From Saccoglossus kowalevskii (Eukaryota > Hemichordata > Enteropneusta > Harrimaniidae): a stretch of 60,383 bases of DNA. A program made the translations under genes and the position numbers. The stretch spans positions 366,703 to 427,085 of the forward strand of contig NW_003128369.1 in assembly GCF_000003605.2 (NCBI RefSeq), in the 5' to 3' direction. A model generated the notes under the pieces. The model did no database searches. It was not told the DNA's origin and saw only the letters and a program-made list of their open reading frames with translations. This document shows, piece after piece, positions 14,471 to 57,399 of the stretch (positions within the stretch are counted from its first letter, which is position 1; the number at the start of each line of letters is the position of its first letter).

Positions 14471-17135
14471 AAATTTATGTTTTAAATTGAACTGCATTTA
14501 TATATTTATTATGCGAAGAAAATAAAGTGAACATGAATAGTAGTAACATTTTATTTTATTTATTGAATACCCATGTACATTTATCACCCACATTCTGATT
14601 GTTAGGCAAATCGTTCCGCCCAGTTAAATTCATGACAAGTGAGTCTTATTATTCCAAGATGGCTAGCAAAGGCAACGTACGCAAACTCATCAACTGGAGT
14701 CAAGTGTCCATTTCTGAACTTGAACGAGAACCTGGTGACATCATTACATCAAAGGAGCTATTTTTTCATTACGAAAATTTCATATCAATAATGACAAAAA
14801 ATGATTGACAGACACGGTCAATGATTAGTAAGGCTTGCTTATATAAGGTACGTGTTTTTGTGTGGCTGGGTGATCGAGGATTGAATTTGTCATATCACCA
14901 CAGTTTCAGGAAATACAGATGAGAAATATTTCATAATGACAAGTTTCTTTTTTCATTGTGTTTAGATTTGTGACATAAATATTGTAAACGCTATACAAAT
15001 TCAGAAAACCATACATTGCTTACATCGGTTATACATGTACAGGGAATATTGTGAAACGCTAGTCTGATTCGAGCTCAGTCTTATGTATTATTTGTGTTTA
15101 AATCATAAATTGTATCTCATTTGACATGTGGTATTTTACAGCAAATCGAGGTTACACTTGTTCATAATGACATATCGCCAGTCACCTCGAGTGATAAGCA
15201 AGGTTATCGAGGGTTGAACATACGGCAACATCGGCTAAGAACGGAACACTACTCGATGTCTATTAAAGAAAAACAGAACACTTGTTGAAAGGGAAAAAAT
15301 GAGATGAATATATACAGGTACAATGCGGAACATAATTTTAAAAAATATGCGGTTATTAAGCAAAATATATTAAACGTGGGAATCTACATCTGTGGAAAGT
15401 TCACACCTTTATATTTGAATTTGACGAGTTCTCTCCTGATAATGAGGGAATATCTCAATCTCGAATAAAAGTCTTAATATTTGTAATGGTTTAATATTTT
15501 GTATAGCCATCGTATAATGTCACTCACATCATCATTGCCATATATTTTCAGGATCAATCCACACAGTTAAAAGAAGATTGGAATAACGTTTTTCCTAAAT
15601 CATTCCAGCATTGTCACAAAACAGCTGAAGATTAATGACAGGCCATGTGTTGTTATGATTTCCAAATATTACATACCAGAAGGGGCAGTTATTATATAAT
15701 TATGGTGATGAGAAAGCACCATTTTTGCAAATTCACAGTTCACATTTATGAGCTATGTTCGAGTTGTGTTGTGTCGTTGGTATACAATTTTTCATTGGGT
15801 TTTACTTTACATGAACGTGTAAAATAACAATAAAATTTAATCAATATTTCCTTGACAAGAAATTACAACACAGTGAAATTAAATGTCAGTTAAATTAAAT
15901 ACTTTTACAGTATTTAAAAGTCAGAGATTGTACAATTGAGTATATTATGTTTCACACGACAGTGCCACAGACTAATTGCTGAGCCTTTTTAAAATCCCTA
16001 AATAAATGAAATTTATGGTGTATGCAAAATGAAGTTTATGTAAGCGTAATGAAACTATTTTTCTTTTAAATTTACAACTATTCCCAATCCTAGTAAATAA
16101 ATTATTATTTTGACACAGATCAATGTATTTAAAGCACCTTCATCTCCTTCTTTATCTTGTAGGTCATTATTACAGTAATACATTTGACTGGGGATCCAGA
16201 GAAATAATTACATTCAAATGTGGGAAAATATTAGTTAATCAATGAACACGAATTATCTGTTTCATTATTTTAACAAAGTAAAGATGAACGGTGCAACATG
16301 GTCAAATAAAGTTCAAGATTGGTCGTTCAGTTACGTAATAATCCAAAGTTAATTCAGACCCATTTTAACACACAGCCAGGGTACTGAACTATTTCATTGC
16401 CTGATATTAAAAGTTCAGTAACTAACTTCTTAGAACATAAATATATGCATTCAGTAATTTTAATATAAAATAGGTACATTTTTCTTGGTAATAGTGACAC
16501 CTTTTGTTTAGTATATCAGATTTGACTACTTGTTCTAAGGTGCGGCACTTGGAAATGAGTGTTGTGACATGTGACAAATGTCCAACTGTCTTGGGTAATT
16601 AGAAACTGGTATACCTGCATGTATGAAGCCAATGAATTTTATTCAAGACAAAGAAACTGCATCTATTTATATAAATACACATAGACAGAGAATATTTTCT
16701 TAGAGCACTAAATATACCACACCAGCCACAAAGCGACGAGGAGCTGGCTGGGTAGGTAGTGAAGAAAAACATTGACTGAAGCATTGCAAAGGACTGAATT
16801 GTTGTCAATAGCAACAAACATATTGGGAAAGTCAAAGACAGTAAAAAAAAACACAGGCTTTCTTTCTAAAATCTTTATTTGCTCCAAGTAATCCAGGGTA
16901 GAACGAGATGAATCAACGCTATAGTCTGCCATCTTTATTTTAATATTAGATGCAACCATTATTTTATGGGGGATATAACTAGACATAACGCCCATTGATC
17001 AATAAGAATCTAAGTTACAGGGAAACATAATTTTGATTTTTCAGTGGACCAATAAATTCATTTGACAGGAATCTACCACAACAGCAATTAAAACAGCTTG
17101 CTGCATTATAAGTATCACTTATTATTTTCCCGCAA
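14471..17135. other. Non-coding; one unassigned 69-codon open frame
   Basis: No gene is supported. The frame 14599-14808 (NWSQVSISELEREPGDIITS) has protein-like composition but no family I recognise; it could be a relic exon. The rest (to 17135) is AT-rich with short frames on both strands that look random. Confidence 0.35.
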
Positions 17136-17800
17136 TTGAAAGAATGCGGTGGATTTGAAATGATGCAGTGTGCACCAAATACACGTAAACTGAGTGTGAT
17201 AACATGCTTGTGGTCTGTTAACTCAAGGCTAATTTGGGGTCCCAGTCAAAAATCTATTTACGGCCCATACTTGTTTGTTTATTTGCGCGACGTTGTCCAC
17301 GTTAAAGCCCGGTTATTCATACAGTTGTTATGGAAACTCAAACTAGGCTGGGACGAACCGCTTAACTCAGACCTATGTTCGATGTGGATGCATATCGCTG
17401 AGGATCTAAACGATGCAAGAAATATTCAGGTGAAACGTCAATATTTCCCTGAAGTCAATCCTGATGCCGAGTTTGAATTACACGCTTTCACCAGTCCCAA
17501 GGCATATGGTGCGGTGATCTACCTAAGATGTGCACAACAAACTTCCTTTGTGATGGCGAAAACCAGAATCGCGCCAATGACCGAAACTACGCTATCTAGA
17601 TTGGAACTTATGGCAACATTAATTGCTACACGTCTCAGTAAATATGTCAAAGATGCGCTATCTGACAAATATAACATTACTAATTTCTATTTGTGGTTGG
17701 ACAGCCAAATCACGCTTCATTGGTTAAATAGTGACAAGAAACTGCCAAATTTGAGAACACTGCTTGATAAATGGCAATCAGTTGTGGGTAGCCTAAAGTA
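17136..17800 (+). mobile_element. BEL/Pao LTR retrotransposon, pol fragment
   Basis: An open frame of about 220 codons holds the linker between reverse transcriptase and RNase H and the RNase H-like region of a BEL/Pao polyprotein. Visible landmarks are ARLFIQLLWKLKLGWDEPLN (about 17310-17370), LHAFTSPKAYGAVIYLR (aspartate replaced in the usual FxDAS box), ETTLSRLELMATLIATRL and FYLWLDSQITLHWLNSD. There are no protease, RT core, integrase or LTR sequences next to it, so it is a fragment. It ends abruptly at an oligo(T) run, which looks like the boundary of a later event. The frame is open, so decay is slight. Confidence 0.88.
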
Positions 17801-17820
17801 TTTTTTTTTTTTTTTTTTTT
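17801..17820. repeat. Oligo(T) run at the end of the BEL/Pao fragment
   Basis: About 19 consecutive T bases interrupt the BEL/Pao frame in the middle of the RNase H domain. This could be the poly(A) tail of a minus-strand retrotransposed insert to its right, or slippage at a breakpoint. Confidence 0.6.
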
Positions 17821-18540
17821 GACCTGGCAGTGTGACACTTAATTTTGTATAAATTTCACACTGGATTTTCACTCAGGATTGAATAATTGTCATGGTAGAT
17901 AATACTAAACTGTTTTTTATAGCCAAATATAAACCAATGTTAGCCATTCGGCAAACGTTGAGAAGAAAACATGAAAGATCACAATATTTTACCAACATGC
18001 ATGTATTTCTAGTGTTTAATTTGCCATTCATACTAATCTTACATTTTTTGTGACATCTCTGGTATGTTAATTTCTCCTAAATATTTCCCATCAACCAGAT
18101 AATAACCGTGAGTAAAGACGAAATCCCTCCTGCACCAGTTCCAGAGGTAATTATAAGTATTATGTAAATCTTTGTTTTCAAACTATAAGTTGTGAATTGG
18201 GTGAGTGATTGGCATGATACATTTAGAGCCGTTGAACCATTTGGGCCTCAACATTTATTCTTGACAACTGCTTGATTGCATGTAAATACGTTCACCGATA
18301 GGGCTTCTGTTGAAACTATTTGTGTATCGTGAACTGCTAATAACCAGCTGATGATGGCTTTGAATCTGCCTGTTGCACAGTCCTCAACTAGATTAGAAGA
18401 GGAATCTAATAATGCTGATGTTGCATTTTACAATCCCACAGAAGTGCAGATACTGTACAACAAACAACTGATTATTGCGACAACATATGTGAACCTGTAG
18501 AACTATAACGTTACTTTCAGTTCAAGCTAGTTAAAGACAG
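17821..18540. other. Unassigned; possible upstream exons of the HECT-like gene
   Basis: Protein-like stretches such as QLMMALNLPVAQSSTRLEEE (about 18350-18410) lie on the strand of the HECT-like gene downstream. I cannot place splice sites with confidence. Confidence 0.3.
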
Positions 18541-20044: not shown

Positions 20045-20133
20045 TTTCTCAGTAAGCCGAACGGGGACTATTAATTTTGGTTCCTTGCGTGTGTGTGTGT
20101 CCATCCGGAGCCATTTCTCGGACGCCCTTTGAC
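20045..20133. repeat. Target repeat, left half (flank of the P-like element)
   Basis: If the 8.9-kb element and one copy of the target duplication are taken out, the left text (GGTTCCTTGCGTGTGTG, CCATCCGGAGCC, GACGCCCTTTGACC) continues smoothly into the right flank at 29033 (AATATCATTCAAACTTGGCA). That is the usual form of a dispersed repeat, so the transposon landed in an older repeat inside the HECT-gene intron. Confidence 0.6.
20127..20133. repeat. Target-site duplication, left copy
   Basis: CTTTGAC directly precedes the left inverted repeat and recurs directly after the right one (29025-29031). The next base is C on both sides, so the duplication is 7 bp, or 8 bp (CTTTGACC) if the left terminus lost one base. 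P-family elements make 8-bp duplications. Confidence 0.8.
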
Positions 20134-20163
20134 CATAGACCCTCAACAAAGGGATAGGAAACA
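20134..20163 (+). repeat. Left terminal inverted repeat of the P-like element
   Basis: Thirty nucleotides, starting CATAGACCCTC, identical to the reverse complement of 28995-29024. Similarity stops abruptly inside the element after GGAAACA. Confidence 0.92.
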
Positions 20164-20362
20164 GGGCTATTTTCTTTTTAATTATGCAAAGCAACATCGT
20201 ACAAACACATTAGTGCGAGTTTACATAACGGTGTACAACGCAAATAAACTAACTGATAAACTTATCGTCTGGTCACGAAAAATCTCGCAAAATCCCGAAC
20301 GCGATTTACGGGGTTTTGCGAGAACGAGATTATGCTAAATAGCTACATGTGTCATTTTCAAA

Positions 20363-22624
20363 ATGGAGGTTGATCAGAATGCTTGGGAATATTTTAGCGA
20401 TGACGAGGAGTTTTTCGAGGTTATGGAAAGTTTGGAAGAAGAAAACGTGGATATTGTCGATGAGGGAATTGACAATCCAAGTGACTCTGGTTCTATGTGA
20501 GCCGTTGGCGATGAAAAGAAATCTGGGCGACGAAATTTACGATATCTGGATTCGTTCATCGATGTCATTGATATTGAAGTGGACGAAAGCATTGGTGGCG
20601 GTCGTTTTAAAAGCTCTATTTTGTAGCAAAGGTTTTAAAACGAAATCGGGTTGCAAGAACCATCTACTGAATGGTCACAAAATCACCGGTACGTGTATAT
20701 TTTGGTATACGTTTTTTTTCTATGATATATTACGCCATGGAGTTTCTCTAGCAATCACTTTGTTTCTAGGTTTTGACACCTGTTATTTTTGTTTTCTTTC
20801 TATAGACGAGTCAATGGAAACTATGTCTGCAGCTATGACCACCAAACAAAAGGAGGATAAAGGACACGAGGCGAAAAAGTCCAAGAGAGCAGGTGCGTTT
20901 TGGTTGGGTCGAAACAATTACATGTTAGGGGGTTGACTTTTGTAAACTATGGGGTGGGAGATGGTAGAAAGAATTTTCCTTTGAGCTGAATGTTTTTTTT
21001 CACAACAAATAACTATAATTTTTTTGGGGGTGTTGTATATTTTTTTTTGTACTAAATATTTTATTTTGTCTGTAAATTCCATTGCATGTCCCTGTTAAAA
21101 TAGTTTTCCAAATCTACTCATCAGCTACCCCTTCTGTGGTATTAAATGCAGCAGAATATCTGTTACACAAATATCATTTATTTTTATTGGAATATTACTG
21201 TACAGAGCAATTATAAATATAAATGCATCAACAGTTAAAATATAGATCATACAAAAATGTAAATGATTAAAACTATAGTCTAATTTCTTTATGAAATTAT
21301 TTTTTTGATTAAAATAAGTTCCACCATCATCATGGCAATGTCAGAAAAAAGATGAACAAGTGTGTGTGTAATGTGAATCATCATTAATTAATGTTGTATT
21401 TCCCGAATTATTACTCATTCGGTTTCAAAAGAAAAGAATTGGTCAACCTTGTATAATGTTTTTACTTTAGTTAAAAGACCAGTTCCAGTGTATACCATCA
21501 AAGATGGTGGACAACTCCTCAAAGCATCATTAGATGATCTGCTTTCAAGAAATTGCATCAAGTTTGGGGGATTTGCCAAAGGAATAATGGTACTTAAAGT
21601 AATCATCACTGCACTATGTCTTCTTGTCGATGAAAACCCAGATTTTGTAGAGTGTAAGATGTCTGGAATAATAGATGTACTGTGGCCAGCAATTATAGCA
21701 GGTGATGAATATCTATTTTCTTGCACGAGGCGTGAAGCAGTTTTCAGGAGTTATCACAAATTAAGAGTATCCACTGAACTAAAAACTGCTATAAAATCGC
21801 TATGCATGATGATACAGCAACCAGTTTTAAACTCTCATCTAGCTACAATTACGAATGCTGTTTTTGAGACCATCTATTCGCGACGAGAGAAGATTGAAAA
21901 AGAGGATGAAACTGTGACTTTGCAGTTGACGAGTGCTGAGGAAAATATTCTGAGATATGCATGTGGGTACATCCCCATGGCACTGTCAAGAAAATCTCTG
22001 TGCAGCCTGAGATGTTGGAGTGTCTTTTAAATATGCATTCCATTAAACCACTGTCTTCCAACAGCTTCTTGTCTTATACAACTGAATGGGTAAACATTGA
22101 AAATAGGGGAGGTCTATTTGTTGTTAATGATAATACATATTTTTTAGAATGGTTGAGAAATTTGTTAGACATCATGTAAATTGTCTTGTCAGTGGTAATT
22201 TTCGTGACGCAGTGATACATTCTGTATTTTCTGATACACTAGCCCTGACCTATTGGTCAGAGTTGTCAGCAGGACTTGAGGAGGCAGCATCAGTACAACT
22301 CATGTTGATGTGTGTCAAGCTATGGATTAACATCAGAGGACATTCTTCTGCAAAACAGATGATTGAGCTCCACAAATCCAAACAAGGCACTGCAATATGT
22401 GGAAACAAGGGGCCTAGTAAAGTTTTGAAATTAACCATTTTAATGTCATTTCACAGAATTTCTAAAATGCAAATCATCAAACCAATGTTAGAGAATTTTC
22501 CAGTCAGCCAGAAATTTGTTTTGGCACTCAGTAGACCAATTTCACAAGCCAAAATGGTCATGCGCAAATTCTATTCCAGATTTTTGATGAGAACTGCATG
22601 GTTAAATTTTCTTTACCACTCTTA
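20363..22624 (+). pseudogene. Accessory gene of the P-like element: C2H2 finger plus conserved C-terminal domain
   Basis: Exon 1 (20363-20688) starts with an acidic segment (MEVDQNAWEYFSDDEEFFEV) and ends in a C2H2-like finger (CSKGFKTKSGCKNHLLNGH), donor ACCG|GTACGT in phase 1. Exon 2 (20806-20892) is lysine-rich and also ends in phase 1. Exon 3 (21471-22624) begins VKRPVPVYTIKDGGQLL in matching phase, then carries LRYACGYIPMAL, WVNIENRGGLFVVND and KLWINIRGHSSAKQMIELHK. The order 'finger, x-GGYV-like, NRGGL, I-R-SFAKD-like' resembles a multicopy invertebrate protein family of unknown role. Defects: TGA after GSM near 20500, one extra T just before the finger (plus Ser where its first Cys is expected), and single-base shifts near 21980 and 22147. 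Intact splice phases through three exons show it was a real gene. It may bind element DNA or regulate transposition; that is inference. Confidence 0.7.
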
Positions 22625-22706
22625 ATTAATTTACTGGCCACAACAAGTAGATGTTCTGTATATAAATAATACTGCATTTGCTCTATTACTAGCACATGTG
22701 TTTATA
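22625..22706 (+). other. 3' flank of the accessory gene
   Basis: Short AT-rich stretch between the stop region of the accessory gene and the Gypsy insertion. Its continuation resumes at 24126, where an AATAAA occurs at about 24262, so the Gypsy element probably split the 3' UTR. Confidence 0.45.
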
Positions 22707-22711
22707 TAATG
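22707..22711. repeat. Target-site duplication of the Gypsy element (left)
   Basis: TAATG precedes the 5' LTR and is repeated at 24121-24125 directly after the 3' LTR. Confidence 0.85.
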
Positions 22712-23217
22712 TGTCGCATACGACTTATTTACCACTTCCGTGTCACTGAGAATGTTCTAGAACCGTACTGTGTCTGGGTGGAATATTCTATATTTTTTTA
22801 GAAAATGGTTGAATAGGTAATAGAACACTGTAGGAGGCAATAGAAGGTAATGGAACATTCTAGAAATTTGTAGTAAGTGCCAGACTCATTATGTATGCTG
22901 ATGTAATGGTCTATTTATAGACAGTGTGGGTTTATATAGGGGAGTTGTTCAGCACTGAGATCAGATCAGAGATCTCGTTGAATTGTATTGGAGTTTAAGT
23001 ATCTAGTTATTGGAGTAGTGGAGTTTTACCGCGTTATTGTACTTGATGTTTGCAGAGTATAATAATACCAGTACCAGTTGAAACCTCATCTGTTGGCTCC
23101 GTGTTCGTATGTTATCATCGCCGCCAGGGAAGTCTTTCTGTTACTGTTGCCATTTTGGTATTTGAACCATCACACCTGTACTATACCAATTACGGTAATA
23201 TTACGTTGCGTGTGACA
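22712..23217 (+). repeat. 5' LTR
   Basis: 506 bp, TG...CA ends. A TATA-like box (TTTATATAGG) lies at 22931-22940, about 300 bp before the LTR end. It differs from the 3' LTR by a few short indels (for example AATAG versus A near 22840/23756, and an extra stretch near 22872-22887) and some substitutions, so insertion is fairly recent but not new. Confidence 0.93.
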
Positions 23218-23219
23218 TC

Positions 23220-23237
23220 TGGGGGCTCGTCCGGGAA
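23220..23237 (+). promoter_or_regulatory. Primer-binding site, tRNA-Pro type
   Basis: TGGGGGCTCGTCCGGGAA, two bases after the LTR. It matches the complement of the 3' end of tRNA-Pro at 17 of 18 positions; the last base differs from the usual T. Minus-strand DNA synthesis would start here. Confidence 0.88.
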
Positions 23238-23255
23238 CAGTGAAGACATATAGAA

Positions 23256-23305
23256 NNNNNNNNNNNNNNNNNNNNNNNNNNNNNNNNNNNNNNNNNNNNN
23301 NNNNN
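23256..23305. other. Assembly gap (50 N)
   Basis: Fifty N lie between the leader and the integrase end of the Gypsy element. Gypsy internal regions are normally 4-5 kb, so the gap size should not be trusted. Confidence 0.95.
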
Positions 23306-23400
23306 AAAACGATTATCGAGTGAGGGTAGGTGACAAAGTGAAGACGTATCACGTAAATATGTTAAAGTTGTATGTTGAGCGGGAGACGTCACCTACCTGA
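23306..23400 (+). pseudogene. Integrase C-terminus of the Gypsy element
   Basis: Directly after the gap the frame reads YRVRVGDKVKTYHVNMLKLY and stops at TGA 23398. The block G-K-x-K-TYHVNMLK-xYxER is the conserved end of many Gypsy integrases. The coding part upstream is hidden by the gap, so this may be an intact end rather than a broken gene. Confidence 0.85.
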
Positions 23401-23614
23401 CTACCTGAACTTTTGAACAGTATAGTAAAATGTTATTCGTTTATGATTATATTTCATATTTTATTATATTCTACTGTATGTGATTTTCGAATTTATGTAC
23501 TTAGAGCTTTATTCAGTTCGATTTGATATATTGTATTGTTTTATTTGAAATTGTTATCATATTCGTATTATTTACGTCGTTGCTAGTCATGTAGTATTAT
23601 GTTATAATATTCTT

Positions 23615-23625
23615 GAGAGGGGAGG
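23615..23625 (+). promoter_or_regulatory. Polypurine tract
   Basis: GAGAGGGGAGG two bases upstream of the 3' LTR; primes plus-strand synthesis. Confidence 0.88.
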
Positions 23626-23627
23626 CA

Positions 23628-24120
23628 TGTCGCATACGACTTATTTACCACTTCCGTGTCACTGAGAATGTTCTAGAACCGTACTGTGTCTGGGTGGAAT
23701 ATTCTATATTTTTTTAGAAAATGGTTGAATAGGTAATAGAACACTGTAGGAGGCAAGAAGGTAATGGAACATTCTAGAAATTTGAAATATGTATGCTGAT
23801 GTAATGGTCTATTTATAGACAGTGTGGGTATATATAGGGGAGTTGTTCAGCACTGAGATCAGATTGGATCGGAGATCTCGTTGAATTGTATTGGAGTTTA
23901 AGTATCTAGTTATTGGAGTAGTGGAGTTTTACCGCGTTATTGTACTTGATGTTTGCAGAGTATAATAATACCAGTACCAGTTGAAACCTCATCTGTTGGC
24001 TCAGTGTTCGTATGTTATCATCGCCGCCAGGGAAGTCTTTCTGTTACTGTTGCCATTTTGGTATTTGAACCATCACACCTGTACTATACCAATTACGGTA
24101 ATATTACGTTGCGTGTGACA
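23628..24120 (+). repeat. 3' LTR
   Basis: 493 bp, nearly identical to the 5' LTR apart from short indels; followed by TAATG (24121-24125). Confidence 0.93.
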
Positions 24121-24125
24121 TAATG

Positions 24126-24871
24126 ACTGTCTAATCTATGGCCAAAGTAAGTCTCATTTTCCTAATCAGTGTATATATATATATATTTTTTTAAATATTT
24201 TGTGCTCTTCTATTGTATCTACACTGTATATAGATACCTGGTCTGTACATGTTGTTTTATGAATAAATGTTTGTGTTGCTAACAACTTGTGTCTTAAATT
24301 CTAAATGAGGAAATGAACACACATAAGTTTAACAGTATTACATTTTTAATGGAAACCGGCATACGAGGCGACCATAAAGGTGCTTGTAAGTCTAGATATG
24401 CTCATTAGATCTTTTGGAGTCGCCTCTCTTTTTGACTCTGCATGAACGTGGGTAATCATTATAAATTTGGAATACGATCAATGTTTATGATTCCAAATCT
24501 GCAACAACAATTTTTGATCCCCTAAAAGCCAAACACACTGGATCTTGTCAGGTGCTAACTGTACACTGACGATTGGTTTGACGGTTTCAGACAGGTTGGT
24601 ACACTGAAATGTAGATGAAAATAAGTGATTTTGTCCTTGAAAAATATAAGAGCAGAAGTCACCGCCTCCCATTGAAATAAAAAACCTGACGGCAAGTACA
24701 AATGACCAAGCAAAAATCCCACAAATTTGTTGTAATAAATAAATGTACAAATATCAGCACCATTTCAGAAAATCACTGACTTGTAAATAAATACCCCCCT
24801 GATTCACATGTACAGACAAATTTTATGTAAAATTTTTGCGTGACTCCATCTCAAAAGCACAAAACTAATGC
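24126..24871. other. Space between the two convergent genes of the P-like element
   Basis: Contains the probable 3' UTR of the accessory gene (AATAAA at about 24262) and, on the minus strand, the 3' flank of the transposase gene. A 90-codon minus-strand frame (24478-24750) has no recognised similarity. Confidence 0.45.
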
Positions 24872-27730
24872 TTATTTTGCATACCGCCGCCGTTTTGGGA
24901 GTAGGATGCAGTCTATGTCAGCATTGGCCACTGGTCCTTGGAAATTACTGCCATGAACGCGTAGTTGGTTTGAACTTTTCATCCTCAACACATTGGCAGT
25001 CTGCCCAAACTGAAGTACAGATGGAGCCTCATCCCCCCCCCCCTTTCATATGACGCTGGTTGCCGAAGTAGGATTCCAGTGGGTCCTGGTTAAAATGCTC
25101 AGACAACACAAACTTCACACCAGGTTGTGACAATAGATACTTCGTAACATCAACAAATGAATTCACTGTAAAAGAAAACAAGAAAGTGTACAAAATAAAT
25201 ACGGCATCAGAAGCAATTCTTTTTCATGCTAAATATATACACAGTAAATGTCATCCAATTTACGAAGTTTGTTTGTATCCTATTTTGGTTTAAGAGATTT
25301 ACTACAGAGATTTTTCGGCAAATGTATTTTGTAAATGTGGGTGTGGAAATCTGATTTCCAAAATTTCAAAAACAGTTTTGTTTATTCAGGCAAGAAATTC
25401 AGACTTAACCCTTTGAGTGACATAATTTTACCAGCCTCTATTTTGGTGTATCAACTTAATATTTGATAATTTTGGACTAAATGGACATAATTTCCTGTTA
25501 CTTGATCACAATTTGAAAAATTGGATGTGGATTTTATTTGTGACATTTTTTTTTTTATTTTAAAAATTTGAGAGAAAAAAAAGCATCAATTTTGAAAAAT
25601 AATTTGACCAGAAACATTTTTTTGGCCTAACAGCTTTCATGACAAAGTCATTGTTTCACAAATATAACTAGCATAAAATTATATAAAAAAAACTTACCAG
25701 TCATGAAAAGGCCATCAACAATCTGCTTACTTAGTTGCATTTTATTCTTCTCATTCTTTGAGTAATCCTCTCTGGCATTCACAAGATCAGACCAATCAGA
25801 CAGGTACCTCAGGAAATTTTCCTGCAGCCACTATAGAAAATATAAAGTAAATTTATTGAAGAGATGATCTTATGCAGAAACTGACACGGCAGAATTTTTT
25901 CTTAAGTTTTGAACAATATTTTTGGGGGCAAATCGTACAAATATACACACTTTAAATCTTTGGTCATCAACTGTCCTGTATCGATGTAGGTCATCTTTTC
26001 TCTTCTTGTATCCCTCCACCATTGATCGAACATTCAGGCAGTCAAAAAATTGTCTAAATACTTGACAAATTTGACTGTTGGAGCAAGTCGGACACAATTA
26101 CCAACAAACGTGGAGATAGCGTTGGCTACGGTGGTGCATACATACATACATACAGATTAAACGTGGTTCAGTTCAATTGAATACATGCTATCCAGTTAAG
26201 TATCATCACACACACATTACAGCAAACCCCACCCCCCTCAACAAAGTAAACCAGTGTAATTTAAAAAACATCAATACTAACAGGCAACATTTCTGGCAGT
26301 GCTGGTAAATCCAGATTTCATTGTGCTGCCAGTTTATATCCTAGAGAGGACACCGGACATCAATAAAGAAACATATCTTGTAATTATACCTGGGCTGCAT
26401 ATTTCACCTTCATTCTTGAGAATGATGTTAAATGTACATGTTCATATTTCAGCTTGTGGCATAGAAACGATCCTCTGTCCAAGTCTGCTTTGTACAAGTC
26501 TTCCACACTATATAGTCACCATTTTAAATTGACAAATATTTTGAATAATTATCCAATAAAACATTACGAATTATGCAGATGAGTGAATAATAAAATATAT
26601 TAAATACATTTTGTGATTTAAAGATAGAGACTTACCCATAATAGCCTTTTTTTGTTGTGTGATCCAGAGTTGGCTCAGAAATTCCTCGTTGTCTTAATTT
26701 TAGGTGTGGCACATCTGACATGAAGTACATCAATCTATCTTCTTCTTCTTCTTCTGCATATGGATTTAAGGTTTTGTACGTCACTTCATCGTCTGGTACT
26801 CCATACAGTTTATAAAATCGTCTATTGGGAGAAGCACCATCTGATGTAGAAACTAGCACCTTAAAACCATAAAGTTCAAGGATCTCAATTGCTTCATGCA
26901 CCAGTGGGTATAGGTAGTCGGAGGTAATCGACGTTGTGGCAAAATGAGCCAGAGGGTAATTCAGCCAAATACATATGCCACGTACCATAAATACCAACAT
27001 GTATTTAGCTATAGTAGGCTTTGTAGACTCATCCTGGAGATTCTTTTCAAATTTCCTTAGAGAATTATTGAAATTTCCAATATCAACAAAGCCAACTAGT
27101 TCACCATTGGTTTTGTCATATACTAGGTGATCTTTGATTTTCACCTCATCGTGTAGAAGTACCACATACTTCTGATGGTTTTCAAGTTCGGTGAAACCAC
27201 ATTCTTGATAAAGTTGCTTCATCACATCGGCAGTAAACCCATTACCAGATTTTGTCCAGTGGGTGTAATCTGCAAGAGTTCTTTCACTTGGCAAGTGTAA
27301 CACACCAGACTCTTTCATGGTCCTGTATACTGCTGATGACCTTAATGTAATGTTAAGACACCATTTGATGAACATCGAGTGGTATCGCATTCCACGTTTA
27401 TTGGAGCAGTTCAGTGCCTTCATCTGCTGGTCCCAGAACAGTCGTTGAAATGTTCCTTCAGGATATTCTTTCTTGACTGCAGACTCGCTGTCATTTGCTA
27501 AAGTCTTGATACTGTCAGACATTTCATGATTTAAAATAATCCCATTTTCACTAATGCTGGTCTTCAGCAAACTCTTGAAGAATTGAAGAAACAGCGTCAC
27601 ACTGCTCATGAGTGAAGTCGGAAACCTCAGGTGTTAAAGACTGAGAACAACTGTTTCTTCCCTTAGACGCTTCTTTCTTTTTTCTGTGATAATTCTTCGG
27701 ACGATATTCAAAACCGTACTTATATGGCAT
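24872..27730 (-). CDS. P-element/THAP9-like transposase, five exons, three probable frameshifts
   Basis: Exon 1 (27730-26636) starts MPYKYGFEYRPKNYH, shifts frame by one base near 27555, then has LFWDQQMKALNCSNKRGMRY, LPSERTLADYTHW, VVLLHDEVKIKDHLVYD, VSTSDGASPNRRFY and YFMSDVPHL; the Asp residues in HDEVKIK and TSDGA fit catalytic positions of the P-type RNase H fold. Donor TATGG|GTAAGT. Exon 2 (26507-26390): LKYEHVHLTSFSRMKVKYAAQ. Exon 3 (about 26139-25951): VANAISTFVGN then, after a one-T loss in a T run, FFDCLNVRSMVEGYKKRKDD. Exon 4 (25830-25698): WLQENFLRYLSDWSDLVNA. Exon 5 (25165-24872): VNSFVDVTKYLL, SEHFNQDPLESYFGNQRHM, then a G run (25033-25043) of 11 where 10 would keep the frame open to RRRYAK and TAA. 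No THAP zinc finger is seen upstream. Splice phases agree except at exon 3, whose acceptor is disrupted by a TATG microsatellite. Marked as CDS because only homopolymer-type errors and that acceptor break it. Confidence 0.85.
26133..26156. repeat. (TACA)n microsatellite at exon 3 of the transposase
   Basis: CATACATACATACATACAG lies where the acceptor of transposase exon 3 is expected, so it may have destroyed splicing of this copy. Confidence 0.6.
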
Positions 27731-28994
27731 GTTGATTTTTTGTAAAATTACAACAACAAAAAAGAGAAATAGTAAACTTAAATTAAAAAAGAGCAATTGT
27801 TGATAAATTAAAAATAATAAAATATTCGAAAAAAAAAGTTCTTTGATATTAACAAAATATTGCATACTTACATTTTAAGTTTAAAACATACTCCAGATGT
27901 CACACTGACAGTAATATATTCCAAGGAAGCAATCTGAAATGAAGGACAATTACAGAAACATTATTAAAATTAGTTTGTACATAATGTAATTCAGCATTTA
28001 CGTATTTATGAGCAGAGGCTGTGACATTTAATAGTTGTTGCACCAGTACATAAACAGCCGGTATAAAAAGAACAGGGCAGCAAAGCTCATGGCCCAATTA
28101 CTAATAGCCCCATAAAAAAAATTCCTGACAATATATACGCAGAACCAGGGAGATTGAGTGGCGTTTTTTTACTGAAAATTATCAAACAGTTGTAATAAAT
28201 GGACTCATACAAAAAAACGTTTTTAATTGATGTCGACCTCATGCATGTGGATAAAATGGATGGACAACGCAACGTCTCAAATCATGTGAAATAGTAAATA
28301 AACATGGCGATGGCGGAAGGCAGCATACGGTCGCTAATTTAAGTCATTCTTTCAAAAGGTTACAGATTATTCACCAAAATACCACCTATTAATGCGACCG
28401 CAAACACCTAATAAATATTTTTTGATCAATTTTATAGGCGTCGCGTCTGTGATTGTGGAAAAAATGGGTGGACAGACATGTATGTCGTATCGACGGTCAA
28501 AATGGCGATCGAAATAAAACACCACCGTATACATTGAGACACCAGGGAGAATGACGGTCGTTTTTTCAGAAAATTGCCAAACATTTGTAATAATGCCGCA
28601 TGTCAATGCGAGCACGGGGACATACAGAAATCATGGTTGGACAACGCAACGCCTTCAATCGAATATAGGGTCAATCAGTGAACATGCCTGGGGTGACATA
28701 ACATTGATTATGTCATCGTCACAAAATATTGATTCCAAGGCGTAACTAGATGTACAAACACTACCAAATACGTATCTTATATGAATAAATACCCAAAGGA
28801 AAAATGCGTTATTGACAAAAACTTCGGAGCTTGCGAAAATGCGTTCGACAGGATGTAGTGCTGAGACTAGACTGATAAGGAGACACGACGTACACGCAGC
28901 TGATGACGTCATCCGGATGTCGAGCACACAAGATAATTAGTATGCAAAACAACAGCGCACACTTGATTAATAAACATCCTTTGTTGTCTCGTGT
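27731..28994. other. Right arm of the P-like element, with subterminal repeats
   Basis: Non-coding, upstream of the transposase gene, so it should hold its promoter. Related blocks occur at about 28144-28290, 28380-28480 and 28540-28660: CCAGGGAGATTGAGTGGCG / CCAGGGAGAATGACGGTCG, then CAAACAGTTGTAATAA / CAAACATTTGTAATAA, then GGACAACGCAACG in the outer two; the middle block shares ATGGGTGGACA with ATGGATGGACA. Subterminal repeats in P-type elements often serve as transposase-binding sites; that role is inferred here. Confidence 0.6.
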
Positions 28995-29024
28995 TGTTTC
29001 CTATCCCTTTGTTGAGGGTCTATG
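28995..29024 (-). repeat. Right terminal inverted repeat of the P-like element
   Basis: Reverse complement of 20134-20163, 30 of 30 positions. Followed by CTTTGACC. Confidence 0.92.
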
Positions 29025-29032
29025 CTTTGACC
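29025..29032. repeat. Target-site duplication, right copy
   Basis: CTTTGACC; matches 20127-20134 (the last C is shared with the first base of the left inverted repeat). Confidence 0.8.
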
Positions 29033-43189: not shown

Positions 43190-44914
43190 GGACCAGACAT
43201 ATTTATACAGTCCAGACGGAAAGATCTATTTTATATGTGATGTACCGCATCTTATAAACATCATAAGAAATCTCCATGTAAGTGTCAATGTATTTTTGTT
43301 TTATGAAAAACAATACATGAAAAAAAACACTAAGTTTCAGTGTCACTATGGTGCTTCCTCTAATGTAGGAAAGTATATTCTATGTTGGTTACAGTGCATT
43401 ATTAGTCATGCATTGAACAGTCATAAGTTCTCTTATTCTAACTTCTTAAACATAATGGAGGAAAGTCAAATGTGATTTGTATTCATGTGGCATCTATATT
43501 GTTTATTTTGTTTTCTACTGGAAAACATCTATGTTACTGTTCATTTGATAATTTTACCTGACAGTACCAACAAAGAGACATGAAATTGAAGTATTTGGTT
43601 GACTTGGTGGAAGAAGACATTGGAATTGCAGGTAATTCGTCGTCTTCCAAAGATCACATATGAACATATACACCTAAAGCCATCCCTAAGAATGCGAGCA
43701 AAGCTTGATGCACAGGTACAGTAATTAGTAATAAATTGTCATGAAGTATTCTTCTTTGCAGAGTGAACAAATACAGTTTTGTTGTATCACACATTTTGCT
43801 TAACAGAAATGTTCTCTTTCACTGCATAGTTTCAAGTTACTAGGAAAATGCATCATTGTAATAAATTTACATAACAATATACCTGTTTTAAAATGTCACG
43901 TAGTTATTTTAACTACAGGTTTTGAGCAGCAATGTGGCAAAGGCATTCCCAGCTAAAGGACGAAATGACACAAAGTTAACCGAGAAATGTGTATCCATGA
44001 TAGATAATTTCTTCGACTGTATGAATGTCTCTAGACGCAGTCAACATCTGGGGTCAAGGAAAGATGCTCTGGCACCCTATGAACGTCGGGATGACTGGCG
44101 TTTTCAGGTAAAATTATAATTTGTAGAAAAAGTGTTCACAGTAAGTTGTTTCTTCCATTCTCACAAGAAAGCTCTGTGATATCATTACTCTCAAAAAGTA
44201 TTATTAGTTTTGCTCCTTGATAAATGTTTATTAATATACAATCTCATTCAGAAATAAGAAATAATTATAAACGTACAAACGCTAATGTACCAACATGATA
44301 AAATTATTGCTGGGTTCAGATTACCAAAGGGATGATATAATTATAACATACCATGTTGTTTTTTTTCAGTGGCTAAATACATAGTTCCCTGGTTTTCTGG
44401 CAGAGTGGGCGACTTAGTGTTTGAATACACCTAATTTATCTATGAACGAAAAGCAAAACCCTTGAATGATTCAGAATTACAGGTCATATCCATTGATCAC
44501 CACGATTGCCCATTTTCCGGAATTATGCAAATGGTTAAGAGCTACACTGCCATCCATATGTCTATACCGTGTGTTCTAGCTTGTATAAATAACCTCTTCA
44601 GCAATCCAGAGACGAGGCTTATACATAGGCAGCTTTATACATAAAATTTGAACGTGCATATTCAAGGCACCCCTGTTAGATTTTAGTGTGATGTATTACA
44701 GTGTGTGATGAAATAACAACTTAGTATTTTTTCTGGAGTTAAATCCTTTGTTGACTTGAGTAAAGAATTACTGGCAATTGATGTTGTGCAGTATCTTGTG
44801 AGTGAACGATTTACACAAGACCCATTGGAAGAGTATTTCGGCAAGCAGAGTGGATGTCTTGGCATGCACGAATGTTCAACGGCACTACAAGCTGCAAGTT
44901 CATCCCTGCTCTAG
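43190..44914 (+). pseudogene. Second P/THAP9-like transposase relic
   Basis: An exon ending at about 43275 (donor CAT|GTAAGT) reads LYSPDGKIYFICDVPHLINI. Exon about 43562-43715 reads KYLVDLVEEDIGIA, then after a one-base shift VIRRLPKITYEHIHLKPSLR, MRAKLDAQ|GTACAG. Exon 43920-44107 follows in phase 0: VLSSNVAKAFPAKGRNDTKL, FFDCMNVSRRSQHLGSRKDA, DDWRF. A further part from about 44735 reads GVKSFVDLSKELLAIDVVQY, LVSERFTQDPLEEYFGKQ and stops at 44912. The order equals exons 1-5 of the transposase in the element at 20-29 kb, but sequence identity is low, so this is a separate lineage. The N-terminal half is missing and the exon around 44370-44640 is scrambled by stops. No terminal repeats found. 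Confidence 0.8.
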
Positions 44915-47425
44915 ACTGCTCATGTATTTTCATGCTCTAAATTGCCATATGTTATTCTTGTCATGTTGTATATTTTAATTCCACATTTGTATTGGCAACG
45001 TGCGACAGGGGCGTGACTATGAGGATAACTTCCCCATTAATATTTCAAATTGTATTTGTTTGTTTTTTGCCCGAACCATCAATAGTGGAACGCGGCAATT
45101 TTTCAAACACGAGGGAAGTTGCTAACGACGTCTTAGGGGGATGGAAATGAAGTTGTCCGTTTGTAGTTGGCCTTCTCTGCATGTCTGAAGTTGTCTGTGC
45201 TCTGTTTATATTAATTAGAGAAGCTTAGTTTGTGTCAATTTTTTTATAATTTCCTCTGTTGAATGCTTGAAAAAACCTTGATATTTTTTTAGTTCAACAA
45301 ATCTTATTGTACCACTCCAGAAAGTAAAATGATCACACCAATAATTTCAGAATTGATTGTTGGGTTAGTCATGAAGTTTTTTTTTTTTATCTGCGTAGTT
45401 TGGTGTGGCAGCCAAACTGGTTTTCTGTGTGTGCGTGGGGGGGTGGGGGGGGGGTGGCTAAAGTTGTAATTTTTTTGTGAATAGTACTACACATTAGTAT
45501 CCCCTTAGTGATTGTACACATGTACCTCCGTAAATAAAGAAAGGGGGAATTGAAGAAAAAGTTATCTTTACTCTCAATTAACACACAATATGCTGTAGCA
45601 GTAATAATAATATTTTTGTTATTGCATCCTTAGAAGTTTCAAGATTTTATCAGTTGTGATAACAAAAAATATCTCAGTTACAAATAAAAGTATGTGAATA
45701 GCCACAGAACAGTAAATATAAAAAATACCACACTTTTTACGTTAAATCTATTACTGAGAAATATGCTTTTCAGGTTTTTCCCCCTTTATGTGACGCTTTA
45801 TCACGTTTCTTTCATAAGAAATTGCTATGGTTAACATATCAACATACCTCTCTAAAACCCTTTAAATGAGAGAAGATGATACATCAGGTGTTGAAACAAT
45901 TATATTCACTGATGCTTGCACCCCGAGTATGCATGTAGTGCTTAGCCAATTGCTCAACCCTTCGAGAAAAAAAACAGAAACACATCTTCATTGACTTCAA
46001 AAAACCCACTTTATTTTTTTTACCCAGATTTTCGTGAAGTCTAGAAATGATGATGGCTGATTATTTTGTCCATTTGTATCCATGGCTGAATCTGTTCTTT
46101 GGGTACATGGCATATAACCGTATCAATTTAGTCAGGATATATCCAACCAGATACGACAATACCGTCTTTCGAAAATGTTGTGGTGTTATCATCATTGCTT
46201 GTAGAACAATGTATTCCATTGGATTTGGTTTGTAACAAACACCTGATCAATTCTTCTAAAACTCAGTGATGAACAAGTCAATAGTTTGTACTGTGTCCCC
46301 TGACAGTTTGACAGTGTGAAACGACTTACAGAGCAAGTCCAAACCCATACTGGTATTAGATGTTAAATTTTGCTTTGATCAAAGTTCTACTGACCTCACT
46401 GCACTAGTAAATTAATGAACGATTTGTGAAGTCTGGTGATTCCATTGTAGAATGTCACTTACTTCAAGATTTCAAATAGTTGCCAAGAAATATAAACATT
46501 AGTATTTATTACGGTTAATTACTCAAATGTCAGGAGCATCATCTGCGTTTGTTTTGCTTATAGTTTTTGCAGCTTAGGGCCGACCATCAATGTACTCGAC
46601 CAATAATTACGCCATTGTCAACTTTTGTAATTGTTTCTCAAAATACATATGTGTTCTGATTAAGACCTATAATCTAAAATGAACAAAAAAATAGAATTTT
46701 TGAAAACAAATTTTGGTAGGAAAATGGTGGCAATGAAAGGGTTGAGCCAAATTTCTAATGGTAGACTATAGCTAGATCTAATGTGTTCATATTAAAAATC
46801 ACATAAAGCAATGTGCACAATGTAATTACTTTTTCAAGATCATTAAACATTGTTCTAAAATTACTAGTAGATGATCCACCCTATATTCATCTGCATGCAC
46901 TGTAGCAAAAAACTAGTTTGATGGAAATCAATGACTCGAAGATTAAAAACAACAAAGCTACCTGTGAATATTGATGTACATTTGAGAAACATTTGTTCCT
47001 GTAATATTCCATTGGGCACCACTGTCAGTTTGTTTCCTCACATCAGCTGCAAGTATTGGTAGGATTATGGGAATAAGATTCAGTGTGCTGCATTTGACAT
47101 GGATAAAATTACAGATTTACCCAGCAGCAGGTAGAAATTAATTGTAATGGAACTTGGTCAGTAGAGGTGCATGGACTTACTGCAGCAGAGTGTCCTCTTC
47201 TGGTTTCAATTCCGAGCATTTTGGGTGCTATCTCAGATGACCCACCTATCAAATAAAACAAAAGTCGTGACCCATCCCATCATTAAAAATGCTGCCCCCC
47301 TAAAAAAACAAAGAAACATGACAGTTCATGCTCTGACATGATTACAAAATGTATTATGTGTGCAGTGAACATATCATAGTTTGCCACAATTTTGACATTA
47401 TTTTTAGTGTTTGCATTTAATAGAT
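44915..47425. other. Non-coding
   Basis: No gene supported in 2.5 kb. It contains poly(T) and G-rich runs at 45376-45466 and short frames without similarity (46047-46235). Confidence 0.35.
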
Positions 47426-50589: not shown

Positions 50590-51112
50590 TGGTGACTGAT
50601 CCACCGACACCCCTAGGCCGAAGTAGTTGGCCGAACTGTAAAAGGTCATCTCAGAGTCTTCAGCCTGCCATTTTCAATGATGCTAAAAGAGATTTTATCT
50701 CTTATGAAGGGGTGAATACCAAATCCAGAGAATCAAACACGTTAAATGTCATTTTTTGTCTGAATCAGATTGCTGTTTTGTATGTAGCCAGTACCGCTCC
50801 ACACTGTTTATTTTATCCAAAAGGGCTAGGAGCAACAAAGAACCAAGTTTAGACAAAGGAGTGCCATCCCTTCATGATCAAATGCTGATTTGCGCTACAT
50901 TCAGCTTGTATAAGCGGGTCAAAATATCTTCTACCTCATGAGAACACCTTACACGATTACACAGAATTTACTTCAGCAACTGATGAGTGTAATATAGATA
51001 TTATACAGCGGATGAAGTTTGAATCCCTGCTAGATTTCAAAAAGAATGTCACATTAATATTTGACGATATGAAAATTAAAAGTGGCCTAATTTATCTTTA
51101 CATCGACTTGTG
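50590..51112 (+). pseudogene. Third P/THAP9-like transposase relic, N-terminal part
   Basis: In shifting frames: LQPAIFNDAKRDFISYEGVN, FCLNQI, then CCFVCSQYRSTLFILSKRAR (50760-50830), then ENTLHDYTEFTSATDECNID and LLDFKKNVTLIFDDMKIKSG LIY (50940-51090). The blocks 'YRSTLFxLxKR', 'LPSxxTLxDYT' and 'LIFDxMKIKxxLVY' in this order are the N-terminal half of P/THAP9-like transposases; the last holds a catalytic Asp. A TGA follows at 51110. It differs clearly from the two other copies. Because it holds the N-terminal half and the 43-45-kb relic the C-terminal half on the same strand, the two might derive from one element, but 5.7 kb and the wrong order separate them. Confidence 0.65.
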
Positions 51113-54558: not shown

Positions 54559-55314
54559 CTATGACGGGACCCATCCTAAAGGACCCTCCTCAATGGATTG
54601 AGTATCTCTTAGGTAGTAGTTGATAAAGATGTTCTGCGTTCTCCAAAAGCCTTCCTTCAGTATGTGCTCTAAGGGGGCACCTGACACCACTAGTGAGTTA
54701 CCAATCGCACGTACCTCATGCGCCCGTACTTGGTGTCGCTTTAAACCCTGTATTAAAACCTCGAGCCTGGTCGCAGTGATCCACCTGGCCATGGAAGTCG
54801 GGGAGGTTGGTCTGTTCTGCTTACCCTGGCTATAACACATAAACCTGTGCTTGCCATGCCTCAACTCCTTAGTATGGCTTTCGTAGCAACTCTGCGCTCG
54901 AACCGGGCACAGAAGCAACTCCTGATCCTCCGGGTTGTGAATGTTGTCAGTTGAGGGGGTGACGATCAGTTATGGACTGCGTCCTGGGGATTACTTCCTG
55001 GCGAGAGCCCCAATTTGTGTCTTTATCACAACTTGATTGTTCACAAAGGCAACACACCCGTCCGAGAAGGACAGGGACCCTAGTTCAGCCCGATGCCTAC
55101 CTGAGGCGAGGGTGAGTAGGAAGACTGTTTTCCACGTCAAAGGATTGAGTGGTGATTCAACAGTAAACAGTCCCTTAATCGTAGGACAACCAGCTAGCCT
55201 CATCCCCACAATGGTGGGTGAGAAAGCCAACAATCGCCAAAAGGACAAGTCCATTTCGTCCAAACAGAGGGATGGCATGGATCTCCCTTCCACTACACCA
55301 ATCAGTGTACGCAA
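54559..55314 (-). pseudogene. DIRS tyrosine recombinase
   Basis: Frame 55314-54991 holds PLTWKTVFLLTLASGRHRAE, the first catalytic Arg region (SGRRxSEL in active relatives). Frame 54918-54559 holds HQVRAHEVRAIGNSLVV (the H-x-x-R box), the segment APLEHILKEGFW and FINYYLRD with the catalytic Tyr. So all catalytic residues appear to be present but are split between two frames. In DIRS elements this enzyme integrates a circular DNA copy. Confidence 0.85.
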
Positions 55315-55464
55315 GTCATTTCAAGGCATAGGCTGTGTTGGTGGGATCCCTGTTCGCTCTGGCCAGGACGTTGGAAGCCCACTCAGAAAAATCTCAGTGA
55401 GTCAACTGAGCCTTGATGCGTGTAAGTGGTACACAGCTGGGCTCAAAGGCAATGCACTGTCAGG

Positions 55465-56950
55465 TTAGAACAGCAGATCCGGAAGCACCCCTGGTTTTTC
55501 GACTAACATTTCCAACAGTTGTTGAAACCAGATCTTGCTTGGTTTATTGGGCGCCACCCGCATCAAAGTGCAGATGCGCTCCTGTCGAAGTTTCTCTAGT
55601 ACCCGGTGAATAGCGGGAAGGGAGGAAAGGCATACATGTCCATGTGGCTCCAGGGAGTCGACAAAGTGTCCCTGGCCCAGGCTCCTGGAGTTGGCAGGAG
55701 TATTGTGTACGTCAGGAGCTTGGCGTTCCGGGGTGTGGTGAATAGGTCTAACCTTGGACCGCCTCACTGCCGAAACAGTCTGGAGGCTACCCATTGCGGT
55801 ATCCGCCACTCCGTATTCTTGAGACGGAGCCGTCACGGTAGGGTGTCCGCTTGACTGTTTCTCGCCCCTGGAATGGGGTGTAGGGATAGCTCCACATTTA
55901 TTCCTGGTACCAAAGGAGAATTTGCTCCCCTGGGACTGACAACGATGGGGATCTGATCCTCCCCCTTCTTGTCGCTATAGGAGACCACCACTGTGTTGTC
56001 CGTGCGAAGCAAGACTTTGTGGTCTCAAACGATGGGTAGAAACGTGAATCCCTGCCAAGCACACTTCTTTCAGTTCGAGCCAGTTGATATGGCAGCTCTG
56101 AATCGAACGCAGGGGCCATATTTTCCATTGGGCTTGTTCATCCTAAAGGTGCGCTCCCCAACATGTGAGGGAGGCATCTGCAAGTGCCTCTCCAGTTCCC
56201 GTAAGAGAGCCTGGTGTTGCAACAAACGTGCACTGTAATGGGCGGCTGCGTAACGCGGCCTGGGGGGAACTTCCCTGCGAACCGGGAACGCTGACTAGGC
56301 GTTCGGCTAGGTCGAACTGTGTTGATTGAGGGTGGGACTTGCTCGATTTACTAGGAAACACAACTGGTCTAGAAAATCTGGTGTCAGCTTTACTGTTTGA
56401 CTAACCACCCATTGTTGGGTTGTGTAGCAACCAGCCATTTAGGTGCACGTTGATGTGATGTGTACCAGCACAGCAGCAGCACCACCTGTTTCCACACTCT
56501 GGTGAACATACACTCGACTACTTGGCTCAACCGGGCGAATCAAGGGAGTCGCTGACTGACTGGGTGTATTGGTATGTGCGGGTGAGTATCGCTCAAATCT
56601 AGCAAGGCTAACCATTAGAAACAGAGCACGGAGAATAATATGGTGCTCGGCGTTTCCAGGAAACTCGTACTGATTTAGTCTGCTTAAGTCCAGAACAGGG
56701 TGCAGCCACCTGTAGTCTTTGGAACCACCAATACTTGCGAGTAGGAGCCCGGACTTAATGCCGGGTCCCCTATCCTCTGTATAGCACCCTTTGTAAGCAA
56801 AGTATCTACCTCCTGTCGGATTGCTCCCGCCTTGCGGTGGTCCCCTGGTAGTGCCCCGAGCGGGGGCTGGTGCCAGGGAGGTGGAGATTGCAGCAGGATC
56901 TTATAACCATGTATCACCATCTGGACAGTCCAGGGATTGGTCACACGCTG
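55465..56950 (-). pseudogene. DIRS reverse transcriptase/RNase H region
   Basis: Frame 56944-56684 ends with an RT-start-like stretch: EVDTLLTKGAIQRI and SYSQVLVVPKTTGGC. Frames 56361-56143 and 56128-55898 cover the RT end and RNase H (LLWYQE end), and 55836-55465 holds the segment between RNase H and the recombinase (PDVHNTPANSRSLGQGHFVD, LPAIHRVLEK). The RT core (YxDD) at 56400-56680 is not clearly readable, so part is decayed. Confidence 0.7.
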
Positions 56951-57399
56951 AACCGGTATACACTAGCCCAATCAATGAGACGGATGTGTGGATTCGACAG
57001 TTCCACATCTGGGTGATCTCTCCTCCATCGAGGTGAGAACCCGTGAGGCCTGTAGAAGTCGATAGACCAGGAGAGTTCTGCAGTTGGTATTGCTTTGGAT
57101 CCCGGAAGAGACAATCCTACCGAGAGTGACTGTTGCAGGATCGAGGGGGGTTGAACATCGGGTCACAAGGAACAATGTTCCTTCCTCGCCACCTGCCACC
57201 CCCATCCCCCACACCACCCCTCCCCGGCATGGCTCAGAGTCATTATGAAGAACAGATTCTAAGGTTGCACCCGCAGTGTTGTTGTTTTTTATATTTTTGT
57301 ATGGCCGAGCAGGTCACCTCCGTAGTGGAGAAAAGACTCAGGAAAAAATGAATGCCTTGTCTCTGGGTCCAACAGACGATCCCTGGCTGGCAGAATGCG

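Follow-up and report, generated by a model that had tools for sequence, protein, structure and literature searches.

A decayed P-type transposon of Saccoglossus kowalevskii and the convergent accessory gene that it shares with some of its relatives

P elements are the textbook example of a transposon with one gene. The element described here lies in a stretch of 60,383 nucleotides of Saccoglossus kowalevskii DNA (NCBI RefSeq assembly GCF_000003605.2, contig NW_003128369.1, positions 366,703 to 427,085 of the forward strand; hereafter the window) and shares with the P elements of Drosophila, THAP9/Pdre2 of zebrafish and Anopheles P a catalytic core with a GTP-binding insertion. It is also like Drosophila and Anopheles P in the length of its terminal inverted repeats (TIRs; 27-31 bp in insects) and like all three in having deleted, non-autonomous copies, whereas the elements of Drosophila, zebrafish and Anopheles have a THAP domain and, classically, a single gene, and the element in the window has two convergent genes, no THAP domain that we could find and a 7-bp target duplication. 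No second gene is mentioned for these three in the available portions of PMC7776569, PMC10983969 and PMC1562414. Galileo, a Drosophila member of the P superfamily, is alike in its mostly 7-bp target duplications and unlike in its THAP domain and very long TIRs, with no second gene mentioned in the accessible part of its description (PMC4168063).

Transposons with a second gene are described elsewhere. In PIF/Harbinger elements a second, DNA-binding (Myb-like) protein evolves faster than the transposase but congruently with it (available part of PMC9179366), as the accessory protein does here; that transposase is of another superfamily and its companion is of the Myb/SANT type, whereas here a P-type transposase is accompanied by a protein with a C2H2 finger and a C-terminal domain of no known family. 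The Harbinger-like ISL2EU also pairs its transposase with a second gene (same source, same limits), which in that case is a YqaJ exonuclease; no YqaJ is among the Pfam matches of the two proteins of C1630, an intact relative of the window element. RAGL transposons carry two tail-to-tail genes between TIRs (accessible part of PMC7204232), and this layout alone is common to both, since RAGL elements have RAG1L and RAG2L proteins and 5-bp duplications, and Pfam assigns the present transposase to the P type. Among the matches listed in the open-licence literature, judged by titles and the starts of abstracts, we found neither a two-gene nor a THAP-less P element.

We find that the second gene is present, convergent with a P-type transposase gene, in three families bounded by repeats (the window, C1630 and C1415) and in ten more convergent pairs, where a single gene is the classical state of the P superfamily. 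An initial annotation of the window had proposed that this accessory gene was kept as part of a P-like transposon, and in this it is borne out. On balance we read the window as a dead two-gene transposon of a branch of the P superfamily, whose second protein would be a partner for efficient transposition; we consider this the likeliest reading, if only slightly better than an even bet.

Two convergent genes between inverted repeats

The second-best transposase match in the genome, a 610-residue open frame at C1630, lies in an element with perfect 30-nt TIRs and 7.9 kb between them. Splice models made from the DNA alone give this element a transposase gene of six exons (843 residues, no stops) and, on the opposite strand, an accessory gene of four exons (486 residues, no stops, all three introns in phase 1). 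A third family, C1415, has 37-nt repeats (89% alike) with 4.3 kb between them and flanks that match in 6 of 7 bases, and it carries the same convergent pair, both genes decayed. The C1630 terminus (CACCGTCCCTCAACACCCGGTTAAGAAACG) shares 21 of 30 positions with that of the window, a value that none of 100,000 letter shuffles reaches; C1415 shares 17 of 30 with the window (0.5% of shuffles) and 11 of 30 with C1630 (16% of shuffles). Repeats of about 30 bp are a mark of the P superfamily that is seen in the window and in C1630, the repeats of C1415 being longer; the mark is not a strict one, since the Pdre2 repeat has 13 bp in the available part of PMC10983969. By eye the Pdre2 terminus given there, CATACCTGTCAAC, resembles CATAGACCCTCAAC of the window, with CATA in common and TCAAC shifted by one base, which is a hint that the ends may be of old kinship. 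At least 64 places in the genome have C1630-type termini (reversed control, 0); seven opposite pairs among them stand 0.9-1.5 kb apart, like P-related miniature inverted-repeat transposable elements, with 7-bp duplications that are exact in three cases and imperfect in four, and most of the other places had no partner in this search.

In the window itself the two 30-nt repeats are 100% complementary, as the initial annotation had it, with an exact 7-bp duplication, CTTTGAC, on either side. On contig C4070 a relative of the repeat around the element (87% alike) has the target site once and no element. The 8-bp alternative allowed for by the initial annotation can be read at this insertion as CTTTGACC, the repeat then starting one base later, and among 12 insertions it can be read here alone: a 7-bp duplication is exact in six, matches in 6 of 7 bases in four and in 5 of 7 at C4088, and none is seen at C1630. 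An 8-bp duplication, another mark of the P superfamily, is therefore not a feature of these elements. The annotated length of 8.9 kb describes a real, bounded element and includes a nested long terminal repeat (LTR) retroelement, which lies between the two genes, is younger than the transposon and is missing from another copy (C785); subtracting it leaves about 7.5 kb for the element proper. By eye the nested element is bounded by TG...CA and by a 5-bp duplication, TAATG; two similar LTRs flank an assembly gap, and the first LTR is followed by what we take to be a primer site of the tRNA-Pro type.

The transposase gene of the window copy is on the minus strand and the accessory gene on the plus strand, and both are disrupted. 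The transposase is broken by frame changes, one of which adjoins a C run near position 25041. The accessory gene has three exons with splice sites assigned by eye; exon 1 contains an in-frame stop and one frame change and exon 3 two frame changes, so that an intact gene in this copy is not supported. The ACGYI, NRGGLF and RGHSSAK blocks listed in the initial annotation are all present. The C2H2 finger of the window copy is, by eye, missing its first cysteine, and the finger part of exon 1 there matches the C1630 accessory protein weakly; in C1630 the finger is complete (CPFCQKQYKSASGFRGHVKGGH). The claim of the initial annotation that the splice phases agree fits the phase-1 introns of C1630; in the window phase 1 is a possible placement by eye, and the broken frame does not allow it to be demonstrated from the ATG.

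A genome search with the window terminus (at most 2 mismatches; reversed-pattern control, 0) gave at least 8 places, which amount to five copies, the window being the only long one. The C642 copy is 1.24 kb long with a 7-bp duplication, GTTGTAC, the C785 copy is 2.42 kb long with ATCAAAT duplicated, and at C2041 and C3499 one end each was found. All four are internally deleted in the DNA examined and are also without most or all of the transposase gene. Three keep the start of accessory exon 1 (60 nt in C642, 60 nt in C3499 and 134 nt in C2041), and in C785 the deletion runs from the accessory start codon to beyond the accessory stop; on this ground the ancestors of the short copies very probably carried the accessory gene, and by their anatomy these are ordinary deletion copies. 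The initial annotation had held that a lack of the gene in other copies with the same termini would make it a passenger or a later insertion. Taken literally this went against it, because four of the five copies are without the gene, but those four are deleted and three of them retain its beginning. Late insertion of the accessory gene into the window copy is rejected in view of the same three sisters and of the resemblance of C785 to a deletion copy.

The transposase and the missing THAP domain

The transposase was annotated as being of the P/THAP9 type, and the catalytic half of this description stands. A piece of the window transposase matches PF21787 (E 3e-27), the only P-type Pfam model matched there, and the match of the window transposase to a profile based on C1630 begins only at position 272. 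The C1630 transposase matches PF21787 (1.8e-27), PF21788 (3.5e-18) and PF21789 (1.2e-5), each over its own cut-off, and shows the mark of the superfamily, a split RNase H fold interrupted by a GTP-binding insertion. Its motifs HDEVK (416), SDGAS (521), DVPH (564) and QDPLE (771) provide the D-D-E and D(2)H residues, which we take to be the catalytic ones by motif, with the available part of PMC4168063 as a guide; the same motifs are visible by eye in the window translations. With the transposase as query (a piece of it for the PDB), the PDB gave one match at E 0.21, which is not credible, phage records gave none, and viral contigs gave 19 pattern matches for the window transposase, of which 0 were confirmed.

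The THAP half of the description was not recovered. A THAP domain is present in the P elements of Anopheles, zebrafish and Drosophila and in Galileo (available parts of PMC1562414, PMC10983969, PMC7776569 and PMC4168063), and the first of these papers, as far as available, ascribes one to all P transposases. In the complete C1630 transposase nothing matched THAP at E up to 1, and neither did any of 10 hand-picked open frames on the 5' side of the transposase genes of C1630 and the window; two of these frames contain the first exon. The fact that the genome yields at least 70 THAP matches elsewhere indicates that the search works; compared with the lists of transposase matches, none of the THAP matches listed was placed at the N-terminus of a transposase. 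Those that come closest to transposase sequence are on C4581 (8 kb off, on the other strand) and at C2261:3022854-3024701, where a THAP match and a C1630-like transposase share a strand and the match lies 1.4 kb past the C-terminal exon. The first transposase exon opens with a few basic residues, which read MPYKYGFEYRPKNYHRK in the window and MPFRTNKWARPKKYYRK in C1630.

Recurrence and divergence of the accessory gene

We searched the genome (572 Mb, 4830 contigs; the match lists are lower bounds) with three accessory queries and scanned the retrieved loci with a profile (reversed-sequence control, 0 matches). By our own count there are at least 30 accessory loci, 13 of which are convergent to a transposase, that is, with the transposase downstream on the opposite strand (at C842 with an 8-kb gap), two are on the same strand, none is divergent and 15 are without a transposase call in the DNA examined. 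Six of the loci were counted without flanking DNA (C3060:23k, C3060:42k, C2562, C2501:62k, C2501:116k and C1342), and C1422, with a transposase-like motif by eye only, was left out of the linked count. At C3703, C3898 and C2562 a TIR of the C1630 type stands about 240 nt ahead of the stretch of accessory exon 1 that was matched.

The identities of the two proteins were compared over profile positions common to the linked elements, which sufficed for 38 of 55 possible pairs, the transposase stretches often being C-terminal exons only. Accessory identity was lower than transposase identity in all 38 pairs, and the two were correlated (Mantel r 0.58 for 10 elements and 37 pairs, a value reached in 1 of 5000 label permutations). 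Nonsynonymous divergence (dN) was 0.43-0.91 in 12 of the 14 accessory pairs, with synonymous divergence (dS) of 2.8, 3.8 or at saturation, counted from open pieces only and thus biased toward conserved stretches; in a recent pair, C3703/C3898, exon 1 gave dS 0.11 and dN 0.02 (6 and 6 changes). The accessory gene is under purifying selection across families and diverges faster than the transposase but congruently with it, and the initial annotation was right that it had been maintained as a gene.

The C1630 accessory protein has a net charge of -16 over its first 60 residues and +17 over the 100 residues of a basic middle that holds the finger, followed by the C-terminal domain. A motif like FDDsDIDW recurs in the acidic part at the seven compared loci that include exon 1 (as a variant at C346), and most families with good coverage have the AGD, GYIP, RGGLF and R.xSxA blocks, with no invariant column. 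Pfam gave only C2H2-type models for this protein, none above cut-off, and no family for the C-terminal domain; NCBIfam gave no match. With E up to 1 as the limit, a PDB profile search gave 26 matches, most of them in the finger and nearly all to zinc-finger chains (Semaphorin-2A is an exception), and with the exon-3 piece of the window two bromodomain chains only, at E 0.8. Proteins of this sort, without a name, are often met in the gene sets of cnidarians and molluscs. The accessory gene may be a host gene captured in the remote past; a non-exhaustive check of the genome recognised no intact stand-alone host copy.

Features of the element in the window, and loci of the two genes in the genome
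Feature	Position or loci	Strand	Remark
Left target-site duplication, CTTTGAC	20127..20133	.	flank comparison
Left terminal inverted repeat, 30 nt	20134..20163	+	same terminus found in 5 copies
Accessory exon 1	20363..20688	+	N-terminus acidic, C2H2 finger degenerate; one in-frame stop, one frame change
Accessory exon 2, basic linker	20806..20892	+	splice signals by eye; reading frame
Accessory exon 3, C-terminal domain	21471..22625	+	AGD, ACGYIP, NRGGLF, RGHSSAK blocks; two frame changes
Nested LTR retroelement remnant	22712..24120	.	foreign to transposon; two LTRs, 50-N gap 23256-23305
P-type transposase gene, broken frame	24872..27730	-	ATG at 27730
Recognised transposase pieces	27633-26635, 26515-26387, 26097-25873, 25830-25651, 25223-25032	-	plus C-terminal tail, assigned by eye
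Right terminal inverted repeat, 30 nt	28995..29024	-	pairs with left repeat
Right target-site duplication, CTTTGAC	29025..29031	.	flank comparison
Convergent accessory and transposase (13)	window, C1630, C1415, C4066, C3768, C3427, C2502, C2921, C2261:758k, C4581, C346, C2074:177k, C842
Accessory loci without transposase (8)	C617, C4514, C3703, C3898, C3649, C3060:4k, C2074:146k, C1873		up to 1.5 kb each side
Transposase loci without accessory (8)	C4516 twice, C1737, C2261:923k, C662, C2039:190k, C2440, C3770:406k

Elsewhere in the window, on the plus strand, further fragments of P-like transposase lie in scrambled order at 43590-44911, 47107-47253 and 50708-51110, and the profile scan called no accessory sequence there. 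Open frames at 17112-17822 and 54559-58199 resemble, by eye, a BEL/Pao pol and a DIRS-type element.

Partner, regulator or passenger

That the accessory protein participates in transposition, and in what manner, we infer from the patterns above. The transposase would be the catalytic protein, P-type with a split RNase H fold, a GTP-binding insertion, D-D-E plus D(2)H residues and no THAP domain found; the accessory protein, with its acidic N-terminal motif, single C2H2 finger on a basic linker and conserved C-terminal domain, would help it to locate or bind the transposon ends. Alternatively, the accessory protein might carry the transposase into the nucleus and into the end complex. In either role it would resemble the Myb-like protein of Harbinger elements. 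For a transposase without a THAP domain, a partner in DNA binding or assembly would be the economical reading; comparable pairs exist in Harbinger and RAG-like elements. A stronger version, that end recognition passed from a THAP domain within the transposase to a separate C2H2 protein and made the P transposase an obligate two-protein enzyme like RAG1/RAG2 or Harbinger, is possible but rather doubtful.

Several observations weigh against a partner in transposition. Searching with the transposase gave at least 25 matches at 20 loci (our own count), where seven have a convergent accessory gene, one a same-strand fragment (C3574), eight no accessory in a 5.4-kb downstream stretch, and four lay outside the examination (C2559, C1645, C1728 and C3770:389k). 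Several of the eight appear truncated; at C1737 the recognised transposase extends as far as profile position 837 of 840, with no accessory downstream and no THAP nearby, and the gene may be dispensable in some families. It is therefore a recurrent and not a universal companion of the transposase in this genome. The two linked loci that are not convergent, C3574 and C2266, have same-strand fragments, the C1630 element shows no target duplication in its flanks, and the decayed pair C3060/C4581 (dS 0.29, dN 0.22) is near neutral, as expected for dead copies. The helix of the C1630 finger has small residues (S, S, G, G) at what we take to be the usual contact positions, and the finger changes little while the TIRs vary; both speak against a direct recognition of bases. 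At C3574:1971712-1974945 the transposase pieces are 79-85% alike to C1630 in DNA, with the accessory fragments upstream; it is perhaps a rearranged copy.

The same small contact residues would suit a regulator encoded by the element itself (a repressor, an activator or an anti-silencing factor) whose acidic motif acts on transcription or on host silencing. This is a serious rival, if somewhat unlikely: the N-terminus of the protein is strongly acidic and carries the FDDsDIDW-like motif, it evolves faster than the transposase, as expected of a host-facing protein, and P elements encode a repressor form of their own transposase (available part of PMC7776569), but its divergence is congruent with that of the transposase, which direct partnership explains at least equally well. 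We think it improbable that the gene is a passenger, captured once from the host or another element by an ancestor and carried without a role. Many copies lack it, 15 of the 30 accessory loci are without a transposase call and the finger is its only match to a known domain; purifying selection, the same convergent place between repeats in three families, the intact accessory gene of the one intact element and the lack of any locus recognised as an intact stand-alone gene (in the same non-exhaustive check) argue the other way. P elements also produce a truncated transposase inhibitor (as far as PMC7776569 is available), and the accessory domain could be an inhibitor made from a duplicated and since diverged portion of the transposase. 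This is very improbable and was rejected on a profile comparison of the accessory C-terminal domain with the transposase, which gave a probability of 0.07 of 100 and E 0.71. A chance meeting of unrelated transposons or gene fragments in the window is hardly credible: the region is rich in repeats, with the nested LTR element and further P-like fragments, yet both genes are enclosed by exact repeats and a duplication, 13 of 15 linked pairs are convergent, and the C1630 and C1415 elements in our view refute it.

A branch with two genes, no THAP domain and at least one intact copy would mean that P-type transposases are able to work with a different means of finding their ends. Such a branch would join Harbinger, ISL2EU and RAG-like elements as cut-and-paste transposons with a second gene, and the C1630 pair makes the division of work between such partners directly testable.

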